DNA from: a virus
Strand: one strand, 5' to 3'
IMG/VR virus record: IMGVR_UViG_3300038425_000003
Coordinates: 1 to 20,389 of that record
DNA: 20,389 nt
In this document: positions 12,214 through 16,348 of the stretch, piece by piece
Position numbering within the stretch: position 1 is the stretch's first letter
How the letters are laid out: the number at the start of each line of letters is the position of its first letter
Translations under genes and position numbers: made by a program
Notes under the pieces: generated by a model
Told to the model about the DNA's origin: nothing
What the model saw: only the letters and a program-made list of their open reading frames with translations
The model's database searches: none

Positions 12214-13770
12214 TTATCCCCCCGCGTATGCGCCGTTGGTTGCCAAAATCTGATGACTCATGTGCATCTTGAGCGCATCGCTGACGCCTGTCTTGATTGC
12301 CTTTGTATGCTGCTCAGGGGTCATGGACGGCGCGGATTGAATCACGATGGTCCCGATTGTGATACCCCCGGCCTGCTCAACCTTGCGAACGTAATCATCA
12401 GGCGATTGCGTCCTAAATCCGCCGTATTCTGCGAGCGTGTCATGCACGTTTCCGCCATGCTTCAAAAGCAACTGTGCAAGATACTTCTCTCCGCCTGCTA
12501 AATTCTGCGCTGCGTTATAGGGATCAACTCCAAGCATTTTAGCTGTGCCTGGCATAAGCTGCATCATGCCGATAGCGCCAGAAGTTGGATTGATGATCGT
12601 CTTTCCGCTTGCGTCTATCTGTCTTCCGTCAGATTCGATCAGCGCAACGCCCCTAACAAGGCGCTGGAAATCCTGATTACTGTAAGCAGATGGAGGAACA
12701 TTGATTCTCATCTCGCTTTGCAATGCGCCGCCGCTAGGAGATTCAAACTTGTCACCATAAAAACTGCCTGGGAGCAAAGAAGCGCCAATATCCTGAAACC
12801 CGTGCGCTGCTACAAGCGATTGATCCCTCGCCGCCTCCAGTTGTTTATATGCATTCTTGTATTGATCTGGACTCCCGTCCAACGCCCAGGCTGCTTTACC
12901 AATATCCCATACTGCTCCGATACTTCCAGTCACCACTTTTTCAAGACCGATGACGGCCTTGATTCCCTCTCCCACCCAGAAAACTACATGAGAAACAGAC
13001 CGCGCGAAGCTCTCAAAGTCTGCGCTCTTCTTGTTGATTGAATCATCACCTGAAATCGTTCCGATAAAATTATCAAAGTCTACCGATAAATCAAGGAACA
13101 TTCCGCCCGTCTTCTTGAGAATGTCGTAAGTCTGCTCAAGCACCGGAACTAGATTATCGACAATCTCCTCAGACCAGCGCGGCATATTCTGGAGAACAAA
13201 ATCATTCATCCGCTCAAGCTGAAGCAGTATTCCGCCCTGCCCGAAACCGAGTTTTTCAAGAAGATCGGAAGCGAATTTCATGCCGAAGTATTCGCCCTTG
13301 AGTTTCAGGCGGTCAATCTGATGATGAACGTCTTGAATGTCCTGCATCTTCTGTTCAAAATCAGGTCCAAGTACACCATTCAGTTTTACTTGGTCATTGA
13401 TTAGCTCAGCAAAATAACTCTTCATTTGAGCCGTGCCGTTGAACACATCTTCGAGCGAAACGCCCATCGTATCGAGCGCCATTGTCATAGCGCGATACTG
13501 TTGCACGGTCATCATGTTTTGCATCGCGTGCTGTTTCATCATGAGATCGGCGCGGCCTAATTTATCTATGTAGGAGACGACGCCAAAACCAACCGATGCA
13601 AATGCAGTCGTACCGGCAACTTGAAACGCAAGCATCTTGCCCGCCATCGCTCCGACAGATGATGCAACCATCTTTTCAGAACCGGCAAGCGTGGAAGCAA
13701 ATTTATCGAAAGATGCTTTATCGACATTCGCGGAGAGGCTGACCAGATAACTTTTGATCGTATCGGCCAT
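12214..13770 (-). CDS. Tape measure protein with lytic transglycosylase domain (518 aa)
   Basis: This protein sets tail length and is ejected at infection. The N-terminal two thirds are mostly helical with two hydrophobic stretches (about residues 40-68 and 260-292). The C-terminal part, about residues 365-455, is a soluble lytic transglycosylase domain. The catalytic Glu is in GVALIESDG (E379), followed by SGAIGMMQLMPGTAKMLGV (the G-x-x-Q-x-M-P-x-T-A motif), then a NLAGGEKYLAQLL helix and the AEYGG motif. This activity would cut peptidoglycan during DNA delivery. AGGAGG lies eight bases before the ATG, which directly abuts the chaperone extension stop. At 518 aa it is short for a myophage; at roughly 0.15 nm per residue the tail would be under about 80 nm. 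Confidence 0.88.
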   Translation of the reverse strand: MADTIKSYLVSLSANVDKASFDKFASTLAGSEKMVASSVGAMAGKMLAFQVAGTTAFASVGFGVVSYIDKLGRADLMMKQHAMQNMMTVQQYRAMTMALDTMGVSLEDVFNGTAQMKSYFAELINDQVKLNGVLGPDFEQKMQDIQDVHHQIDRLKLKGEYFGMKFASDLLEKLGFGQGGILLQLERMNDFVLQNMPRWSEEIVDNLVPVLEQTYDILKKTGGMFLDLSVDFDNFIGTISGDDSINKKSADFESFARSVSHVVFWVGEGIKAVIGLEKVVTGSIGAVWDIGKAAWALDGSPDQYKNAYKQLEAARDQSLVAAHGFQDIGASLLPGSFYGDKFESPSGGALQSEMRINVPPSAYSNQDFQRLVRGVALIESDGRQIDASGKTIINPTSGAIGMMQLMPGTAKMLGVDPYNAAQNLAGGEKYLAQLLLKHGGNVHDTLAEYGGFRTQSPDDYVRKVEQAGGITIGTIVIQSAPSMTPEQHTKAIKTGVSDALKMHMSHQILATNGAYAGG

Positions 13771-14007
13771 CTACTTTGCCTCCTGCGCCGCTCTCCATGC
13801 GCGGAAGTCGGCCTGATTCTTTTCCTTTACGTCCAAGTATTCATGCACATCGCAAAGGTCACGAAACGTGAATACGCCTTCGATAATATCCCGATGCGTC
13901 CAAACTCCAGCCGCGACCGGACGCCAAAGAAACGGGTCTAGGCTTGGGTACTCAGTTGGCTCGAATCCAATGCCGGATTCTGATTCACATTCAATCCGGC
14001 TGCGGGA
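13771..14007 (-). CDS. Tail assembly chaperone extension, -1 frame (GT-like 'T' part, 78 aa)
   Basis: This frame has no usable start of its own. The only in-frame initiator is a GTG at 14037 with no ribosome site, and the residues encoded before the slip site are a shadow of the other frame. It is joined to the chaperone by -1 slippage at 14013-14007, giving ..APFF-SRSRIECESE.. and then a globular-looking segment (DPFLWRPVAAGVWTHRDI, then a helical DLCDVHEYLDVKEKNQADF part). The stop TAG at 13773-13771 is immediately followed by the tape measure ATG. In lambda and many tailed phages the T extension recruits the tail tube to chaperone-coated tape measure; I infer the same here. A fused product of about 218 aa is predicted. 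Confidence 0.72.
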   Translation of the reverse strand, partial: SRSRIECESESGIGFEPTEYPSLDPFLWRPVAAGVWTHRDIIEGVFTFRDLCDVHEYLDVKEKNQADFRAWRAAQEAK

Positions 14008-14426
14008 AAAAAAGGGGCGATATTGAAAGCGATGCACTGCTTTGTCAGTTCCAACACGGCAGGCGCATCAAACTCAAGCTCTGGAATCGCATAGCGCCCA
14101 TCGGCAAAGAGAATAGGCTTAGCAATCGGAGACCCAAGGCGGGAATCGTAACGCCCGCAAACGGAAAGGCAGAGTGCTTGGACCTCGGCCAGTTCACCGC
14201 GTCCAAGCTGTTCCACGAGGAACGCTGCGGTCACTGCAAAGCCCACTTCCGGGTCAACCGGCGCGACGATGGTTTCCGGCTGCGATTCATCGCTCGGATT
14301 CGCTTCTTTATATGCGCGATACCGCTTGACGAAAGTAGAGAAAATCCAGCCGCCGTCCGCTGCTTTCAGAAGCCCGATGCGATACTGATTCTCACCAATG
14401 GTTACATCTTTGTAGTTCGCTGGCAT
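13938..14426 (-). CDS. Tail assembly chaperone, short (0-frame) form (162 aa)
   Basis: This is predicted to be the short chaperone that coats the tape measure protein during tail assembly, like lambda gpG or the equivalent protein of contractile phages. It lies between tube and tape measure, the conserved place for this function. It opens with YKDVTIGENQYRIGLLKAAD, a beta-hairpin start common in these proteins, followed by WIFSTFVKRY and a helical domain. The frame ends shortly after ..NIAPFFPAAG. At the two Phe codons there is a T7 slippery run, and a second frame continues to the tape measure start, so a fraction of ribosomes should make a longer fusion (140 + 78 residues). GGAGAG precedes the ATG. 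Family assignment comes mostly from order and the frameshift arrangement. Confidence 0.75.
   Translation of the reverse strand: MPANYKDVTIGENQYRIGLLKAADGGWIFSTFVKRYRAYKEANPSDESQPETIVAPVDPEVGFAVTAAFLVEQLGRGELAEVQALCLSVCGRYDSRLGSPIAKPILFADGRYAIPELEFDAPAVLELTKQCIAFNIAPFFPAAGLNVNQNPALDSSQLSTQA
13972..14013 (-). promoter_or_regulatory. Programmed -1 ribosomal frameshift signal
   Basis: On the mRNA strand the slippery run T-TTT-TTT (14013-14007) is in the correct phase: 0-frame codons CCT TTT TTT re-pair one base back. Six bases later (CCCGCA), GCCGGATT (14000-13993) pairs perfectly with AATCCGGC (13979-13972) around a 13-nt loop. A heptamer, a 5-9 nt spacer and a stable stem-loop are the three parts of classical -1 frameshift sites. 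The new frame runs exactly to the tape measure gene. Confidence 0.82.
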
Positions 14427-14437
14427 GGTCTCTCCGC

Positions 14438-14893
14438 TTACTGGTTAGCAATGTTTGCGGCCATCAGTTTCCACTGAATGTACTCGCCCTTTGCGCCATA
14501 AGGCTGAGGCGGTTTCTTTGTGAATGAAGCTCCAGTGCAAATGTTTTGATCGCCAGTTACGGGATTCTGCAAGTCAAGCGAGATTGCCGCCCAGTTGCTT
14601 GAATCGCCATTGATGAGTGCCGTCTGATGAGCATTCTGCGCAGACTTGAGATAGGCGTTAATGGCTGAGGTCTGCTGACAATCAACCGTCACAACGCCAT
14701 TCTGCCCCGGCGAAGCGGAAACCATCACCGCACCATCTACGGCCACGTCCTGCTCTGTCCATTCATGCGTCATCTCGACAGTGATCTTTCCACTGCCCAG
14801 CGTTCCGCCCGCAAGGATGAACGGTCCCATCAGCGGAGAGGCAATCGCCCCAGTCAAGTCTTTGAACGAATAGGTGGTAGTTCCGTTCGCCAT
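14438..14893 (-). CDS. Tail tube protein, DUF3277 type (151 aa)
   Basis: This gene encodes the inner tube that stacks inside the sheath and guides DNA. The N-terminus (TTTYSFKDLTGAIASPLMGP) matches the 'tYSFkDv.a.i.gP' opening of DUF3277-type tube proteins. The middle has a DGAVMVSASPGQNGVVTVDC beta segment with an Asn-Ala turn, like the 'G.v..s.....gtvtv.l..tSp.N' pattern. The C-terminal region has a FTKKPPQPYGAKGEYIQW segment. At 151 aa it is the usual size. AGGAG precedes the ATG by six bases. Its place immediately after the sheath and before the chaperone pair is the standard order in contractile tails. Confidence 0.85.
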   Translation of the reverse strand: MANGTTTYSFKDLTGAIASPLMGPFILAGGTLGSGKITVEMTHEWTEQDVAVDGAVMVSASPGQNGVVTVDCQQTSAINAYLKSAQNAHQTALINGDSSNWAAISLDLQNPVTGDQNICTGASFTKKPPQPYGAKGEYIQWKLMAANIANQ

Positions 14894-14905: not shown

Positions 14906-16348
14906 TTACTGTTGGACGTTTACTGCGATTGTAAAGCTCTGCTGTGTTCCGGCAAGGATCACAGCGATGTAGACCGGCATGGACTTGAAGAGTGCCCGAT
15001 CACCACTCGACTGAGTGGAGAACGAAGACGAACCAACCCAGAAACCATTTGCAAGCGAAGTTCCCGGCACCAGACCGCCCGTAGGAAGCAGCGGGATCGC
15101 CACACCGTTCCATACTCCGCCCGCAATAAATCCACGGTTTGCAGACCGGCTGCAAGCCCCACGCGCGGCATTCAGGATAAGCGCCTGCCCTGGATCTTCC
15201 TGCGGAATGGATGGAAGCGATTGCAGAACATTCAGAATCGAAATCTGCGCATCCGCTGCCAGCATATCGAGGCCGAGAACGGTCATGAAGTTTAGGCCAT
15301 TGCCATTCACGCCCTGGTAGTAGAAGTCGTAGGAGTTGGCATAATTGTTATAGCTGTTGCCATTGTTCCCGAATCCAAGCCCCGGCGTTCCGGCAAAGAC
15401 ATTGATCTGCGTTTGCTCCAGAGGCTCCGGAGTCACGCCGATAAGAGTTTTGGCTGCGAGAGAAAAATTGCTATTCGCAAGGCCGGTATTCAGCCCCATC
15501 GCTTTACCGGCAATCGCGCCCGCGATATAAGCGTTGTTTGGAGCCAAGCCGCCCTGAACAGTGGAGTAACAACCATGAGCGCGGCCGTAGTTCGCGGCCT
15601 TAATCAGCGAGAACACATTGCCGACAGTTCCCTGCAAGGCGGAAAGGCTCTGTGTGCTGTAGATGAGTTGTGCAGCAGGCTGTGCGTTCTGGAGATAGGC
15701 GACAATCGCAACATTGTCCGAGTCTGTCGCCGTGGTGGTGGAAACCGTGTACCAAGCGGGCTGCGCAACACGGCAAGCGGTAACCGCCTGCAACGGCGTC
15801 TCGCCCACGGCGATAATGTTCACTTCGAGGCCCGCGCCAGTGCTGGGAAGCTGCGCAGTGGTCAGCAAACCAACAGCCGCCGAATATCCCGTTCCCTGCT
15901 GCCCGGAGATTACTTGGACAGTCTGGACCGCTCCGCCGCTTGCCGTCAAAACCTTGCCGTATCCGTAAGAGGCGTTCGACTGCAAAACTAGAAAAGTGTC
16001 GCCCGCACTCCAGTTAGTGCCACCATGCCCGGAATCTAGCGTTATCGTTTGCAGCGCCGAGGGATCTTGACAGCCCATCCAAAGATACGGCGATTGCGGT
16101 GCCTGGTCTGCATAGAGTTGCGCTTCGATGTATTCAGGATCAGTTGGCTGATAGCCGAGAGCGGCGAGCGATGTGTTGAGTGTGGAAGTGGGAACCAAGA
16201 CGCAACGCGAGTTTGCGCCATAGGAGGGGATGCGCCCGCTGTTGCCGATGATGAGTCCCTGATTGAAGGCCGAGACCGAAACCCCAGCGGGAGTAACGGA
16301 AACGCTCATATCGCAAAGAATCGAAAGCGGTAAAGGCTGTGTGGACAT
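14906..16348 (-). CDS. Tail sheath protein, DUF3383 type, with inserted domain (480 aa)
   Basis: This gene encodes the contractile sheath. DUF3383-type markers are visible. The N-terminal part contains VSVTPAGVSVSAFNQGLIIG. A later segment reads AANYGRAHGCYSTVQGG (the family's 'YGRt.G.YS' region), followed by NFSLAAKTLIGVTPEPLEQ, where the phrase G-V-x-P-E-x-L is highly typical. A Gly/Asn/Tyr-rich loop follows, then FYYQGVNGNGLNFMTVLGLDML and a C-terminal strand region. Residues about 100-182 (GGTNWSAGDTF ... GGAVQTVQVISGQQGTGYS ... GAGLEVNI) form an additional Gly-rich beta module that interrupts the sheath core and probably projects from the tail surface. AGGAGAGAAA precedes the ATG. The presence of sheath followed by tube makes the virion a myovirus. 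Confidence 0.87.
   Translation of the reverse strand: MSTQPLPLSILCDMSVSVTPAGVSVSAFNQGLIIGNSGRIPSYGANSRCVLVPTSTLNTSLAALGYQPTDPEYIEAQLYADQAPQSPYLWMGCQDPSALQTITLDSGHGGTNWSAGDTFLVLQSNASYGYGKVLTASGGAVQTVQVISGQQGTGYSAAVGLLTTAQLPSTGAGLEVNIIAVGETPLQAVTACRVAQPAWYTVSTTTATDSDNVAIVAYLQNAQPAAQLIYSTQSLSALQGTVGNVFSLIKAANYGRAHGCYSTVQGGLAPNNAYIAGAIAGKAMGLNTGLANSNFSLAAKTLIGVTPEPLEQTQINVFAGTPGLGFGNNGNSYNNYANSYDFYYQGVNGNGLNFMTVLGLDMLAADAQISILNVLQSLPSIPQEDPGQALILNAARGACSRSANRGFIAGGVWNGVAIPLLPTGGLVPGTSLANGFWVGSSSFSTQSSGDRALFKSMPVYIAVILAGTQQSFTIAVNVQQ

Follow-up and report, generated by a model that had tools for sequence, protein, structure and literature searches.

The tail assembly chaperone (TAC) gene in the viral record IMGVR_UViG_3300038425_000003 almost certainly encodes its product in two forms, joined by a -1 programmed frameshift. 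The window, i.e. the whole stretch of DNA that was analysed, is a 20.4-kb fragment of this record. The frameshift reading is supported by the protein family, the gene order, an invariant slippery heptamer, a synonymous constraint that starts at the slip site and homologous peptides in the -1 frame, and the cassette proposed for the TAC gene in the initial annotation is upheld by the same evidence. The following genes surround the site:

12214..13770, minus strand: tape measure protein with SLT lytic transglycosylase domain; own Shine-Dalgarno sequence AGGAGG at 13784-13779
13771..14007, minus strand: -1 frame extension (gpT-like C-terminal domain), 78 aa; phrog_4364, E 3.7e-10; followed by TAG 13773-13771
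13938..14426, minus strand: TAC short form (gpG-like), 162 aa; phrog_1688, E 1.9e-5; stop codon TAG 13940-13938
14438..14893, minus strand: tail tube protein, KPP10_Orf10 family; PF11681, E 3.2e-34
14906..16348, minus strand: tail sheath protein, DUF3383 / phrog_205; PHROG/Pfam match

The TAC gene is flanked by the tail tube and tape measure genes, the position expected for a G/GT-type chaperone. Other neighbours are genes for a Dit-like protein, a hub and baseplate J. By its predicted products (sheath, tube, tape measure, Dit-like, hub, baseplate J), the neighbourhood is a contractile-tail operon. The order sheath-tube-TAC-tape measure is retained in nine of nine annotated isolates. The tape measure protein is short (518 aa), and its SLT lytic transglycosylase domain spans approximately residues 369-449. 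Elsewhere in the window, at 1170-1238 on the minus strand, an Rfam tRNA model scores 34.8 bits (cut-off 29); ARAGORN makes no tRNA call there.

The elements of the frameshift site were obtained by direct reading, in the case of the hairpin together with folding:

14035..14037, minus strand: GTG, the only start-like -1 frame codon ahead of the slip site; considered unused
14007..14013, minus strand: slippery heptamer T_TTT_TTT, in phase; an in-phase TTTTTTN is present in every intact relative
14001..14006, minus strand: 6-nt spacer CCCGCA
13993..14000, minus strand: 5' arm of a putative stimulatory hairpin, GCCGGATT
13972..13979, minus strand: 3' arm of the putative stimulatory hairpin, AATCCGGC

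The seven T lie in frame 0 of the TAC gene in the codon context GCC CCT TTT TTT CCC, which is the X_XXY_YYZ phase. The open stretch of the -1 frame starts 54 nt before the slip site and extends to TAG 13773-13771; the tape measure ATG (13770-13768) begins at the next base. A shift at the heptamer is predicted to yield a fused TAC of 140 + 78 = 218 aa with the junction peptide APFFSR. The initial annotation had described this layout correctly in each coordinate, from the heptamer phase and the 6-nt spacer to the perfect 8-bp stem and its 13-nt loop. Its -1 frame reaching a TAG that abuts the tape measure ATG, and its product lengths of 162 aa (short) and 218 aa (fused), agree with the reading frames.

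Relatives were collected with the TAC short form and then with the -1 peptide as bait. A tblastn search with the short form against isolated phages gave no match; therefore, the better conserved -1 peptide was taken. The resulting set with an intact junction comprises 101 contigs (77 viral contigs, 13 genome contigs, 10 isolated phages and the window), which form 17 clusters when the -1 domain is grouped at 60% identity. Three further viral contigs end before the junction and stand outside the 101. The isolated phages (L051 to L060) are Pam3, RHEph04, Erebus, AB434P2, Omnitron, PSTCR3, MiCath, RHph_N17, RHph_TM26 and yong1. Each of the 101 contigs has an in-phase TTTTTTN at the junction. The 17 cluster representatives carry TTTTTTC (11), TTTTTTT (4) or TTTTTTG (2), preceded by the triplet GAT, AGT, CCT or AAT. 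The background frequency of in-phase TTTTTTN is 1 in 29,729 codons, counted in open reading frames of at least 150 codons of the representative loci. Runs of six T are not commoner in the window than chance predicts (7 matches, 14 expected). A T6 alone is not rare; chance cannot explain the site because it is in phase, lies at the junction and is conserved in all intact relatives. Another in-phase heptamer, T_TTT_TTC, is located at 16654-16648 on the minus strand, in the tail terminator gene (16977-16357). It was considered as a rival slip site, is kept by no relative and looks incidental, and it serves as a negative control.

Homopolymers are the classic place of indel errors, and the two frames could accordingly be one long gene that is split by a sequencing error or by a disabling frameshift mutation. 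The probability of this explanation is practically negligible, as the same two-frame layout recurs in 101 contigs, among them isolate and bacterial genomes determined in different laboratories; the relatives exclude it. A single continuous frame across the junction was found in 0 of the 101 intact contigs. The initial annotation had named homologues with a single intact frame, or with the T run lost, as evidence against a frameshift; neither kind occurred among them. The homopolymeric run of seven T could also join the frames by RNA polymerase slippage, which would generate mixed mRNAs. In most clusters, the run is limited to six T before a C or G (TTTTTTC in 11 of 17, TTTTTTG in 2), which is short for transcriptional slippage. 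Polymerase slippage, moreover, does not need the X_XXY_YYZ phase, whereas tandem tRNA slippage does. A transcriptional origin of the two forms is highly improbable.

A synonymous-change test was applied to a codon alignment of 27 distinct TAC genes. Upstream, the ratio of synonymous differences to expectation is 1.18; it declines to 0.63 over the eight codons that precede the slip site and is 0.31 from there onwards. Past the TAC stop codon, most differences are at third positions of -1 frame codons. TTT accounts for 53 of 54 codons at the two slip-site phenylalanines, whereas phenylalanine elsewhere in the same genes is encoded by TTC 113 times and by TTT 63 times. In an alignment of 40 members, no TAC residue except F139 and F140 is invariant. 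The onset of the constraint near the slip site, and not at the GTG, matches the prediction from frameshifting.

Translation of the -1 frame as a separate gene, either from GTG 14037 or by reinitiation, has been weighed against this prediction. Public records often give the second frame as a separate hypothetical protein, as the initial annotation had foreseen, and the window's own clade does carry this GTG, 24 nt upstream of the slip site. The initial annotation was inconsistent in this respect: it stated that the -1 frame lacks its own start, yet expected it to be called from 14037. The frame indeed has no ATG, but the GTG is present. In most lineages, however, the -1 frame contains no ATG, GTG or TTG from its upstream stop to the slip site. 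A Shine-Dalgarno sequence was not found at GTG 14037; such sequences are present for the TAC (GGAGAG) and the tape measure gene (AGGAGG). Two separate genes would also leave the invariant in-phase heptamer unexplained, and the synonymous constraint would be expected to begin at the GTG instead of at about the slip site. Independent translation of the -1 frame is very unlikely. None of the nine annotated isolate records among L051 to L060 contains a join of the two frames; the frameshift extension is either unannotated or listed as a separate hypothetical protein. The record of Omnitron (L055) is without any annotation.

The conservation of the -1 peptide extends to its family assignment. It matches phrog_4364, described as "unknown function", in 18 of 18 members tested, and PHROG 4364 likely represents the C-terminal extension domain of the chaperone. 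The short form reaches 20.9 bits with PF21822 (Phage_TAC_15), just under the 22-bit cut-off, and this family is matched by 38 of 40 aligned relatives. The structure of the short form was modelled with AlphaFold2 from an alignment of the window and the collected loci. The model has a mean pLDDT of 77.5, a last helix at residues 121-139 and a predicted disordered segment at 142-162. The model is ordered to about residue 140 and of low confidence from 142 to 162; therefore, the slip site is placed at the edge of the domain. The -1 domain is predicted to be helical. Sequence profiles of both the short form and the -1 domain gave no convincing match in the PDB. A Foldseek comparison of the short-form model with predicted viral proteins identified chaperones as the best named matches. 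The model aligns with the HK97 chaperone 2ob9 over 85 residues at 3.9 A with a VIA-align Z of 5.3, a value in the range of common folds. The HK97 chain ranks second of nine chains with Z of at least 2 (Foldseek E 3.4), and this match of a predicted model is suggestive only. Among solved structures, the model matches 5ir0 best, which is ORF19 of a Vibrio cholerae PICI-like element (Z 7.9, 97 residues). This hints that the satellite protein may share the chaperone fold.

Downstream of the spacer, GCCGGATT and AATCCGGC form a perfect 8-bp stem with a 13-nt loop. In 12 close sequences, 93.8% of the stem cells are paired, and two pairs are compensated (G-C / G-U / A-U at columns 18-38 and G-C / A-U at columns 19-36). 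This degree of pairing was matched by 1 of 500 shuffles, and sliding the partner by one to three columns reduced pairing to 27-52%. L040, L041 and L043 were left out of the pair count, as MAFFT misaligned their 3' stem arm; their own folds retain a GCCGG/CCGGC stem with a shorter loop. One stem pair is broken and the hairpin weakened in L031-L036 and L038. No strong hairpin was seen by folding in the distant relatives L054, L055, L056 and L060. The folding energy of the hairpin is only mildly better than that of shuffled sequences (z -1.8; 14 of 300 shuffles equally stable), and these weak thermodynamic z-scores were not used as main evidence. The initial annotation had proposed to check homologous loci for conservation of the T run and the stem: the T run is retained in all intact relatives, and the stem is supported only in the window's own clade, with one pair broken in some members. 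The putative stem is likely a clade-level stimulator and not a defining part of the site.

The observed sequence elements, their phase, their conservation and the dual-coding constraint are consistent with the following mechanism, in which slippage, its rate, the hairpin effect and the protein contacts are proposed. Most ribosomes would stay in frame 0 and yield the 162-aa short form, a folded domain up to the slip site followed by about 20 residues predicted to be disordered. At CCT_TTT_TTT, the phenylalanine tRNAs in the P- and A-sites may sometimes re-pair one base back, probably aided in the window's clade by the hairpin 6 nt downstream. The ribosome would then continue in the -1 frame, resulting in the 218-aa form with the additional 78-aa domain. 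If lambda gpG/gpGT are a guide, the tape measure protein would be coated by the short form, and tube subunits would be brought in by the extra domain.

In lambda, it is established that a low-rate -1 shift yields an extended TAC besides the short one, and this arrangement is widespread in tailed phages (PMC5009743). Lambda gpG/gpGT and the window share the short and the -1 extended TAC at the same genetic position, but lambda is a siphophage and no sequence relation was detected. The lambda slippery sequence is GGGAAAG. The likeness to lambda drawn in the initial annotation holds for the two-form layout, but the slip site of the window resembles that of P2. The E/E' gene of P2 slips at T6G, and that of the P2-like Smp131 at T7G (PMC3931495). 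P2 and P2-like phages share with the window a myophage tail operon, a T6/T7 run and a -1 frame reaching the tape measure gene, but no protein sequence similarity between P2 E/E' and the window was found. The available text of a 2025 report describes the same TAC -1 frameshift layout with a GTTTTT motif in Vandenendeviridae and Andersonviridae and also remarks on the mis-annotation of the second frame (PMC12846349). The Pseudomonas phage Adele and its kin are, like the window, myophages with the TAC between tube and tape measure, and, according to this text, the -1 frame extends without a stop to the tape measure in each of their genomes, with GTTTTT as poly-T slippery motif (PMC12846349). The tube tree given there is rooted on RHEph04 and Erebus, both among the relatives of the window found here. 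The window differs from the Adele group in its diverged sequence, its CC-TTTTTTT site and a clade-specific hairpin with compensated pairs, whereas a hairpin is not mentioned for that group in the available text of the report (PMC12846349). The closest kin of the window are Vandenendeviridae/Andersonviridae-type phages.

The window is a further, divergent case of an established TAC arrangement, and the understanding of phage tail assembly is unchanged by it. As far as the literature in its available text shows, the following points are apparently new: T6N is uniform across a wider set, PHROG 4364 has been assigned, and one clade has a hairpin with compensated pairs. It is fairly probable that the in-phase TTTTTTN frameshift is ancestral and near-obligatory in myophages with a DUF3383 sheath and a KPP10-type tube and in related prophages, that PHROG 4364 occurs solely as the C-terminal chaperone domain produced by frameshifting, and that the hairpin tunes the rate in the window's clade. 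This group spans phages of cyanobacteria, Alphaproteobacteria, Gammaproteobacteria and a Firmicute as well as deltaproteobacterial and Zixibacterial genome contigs. The finding corrects a recurrent annotation gap in the TAC extension and gives PHROG 4364 a likely role. The large and uniform set of T6N sites offers material for studying how the frameshift rate is set.
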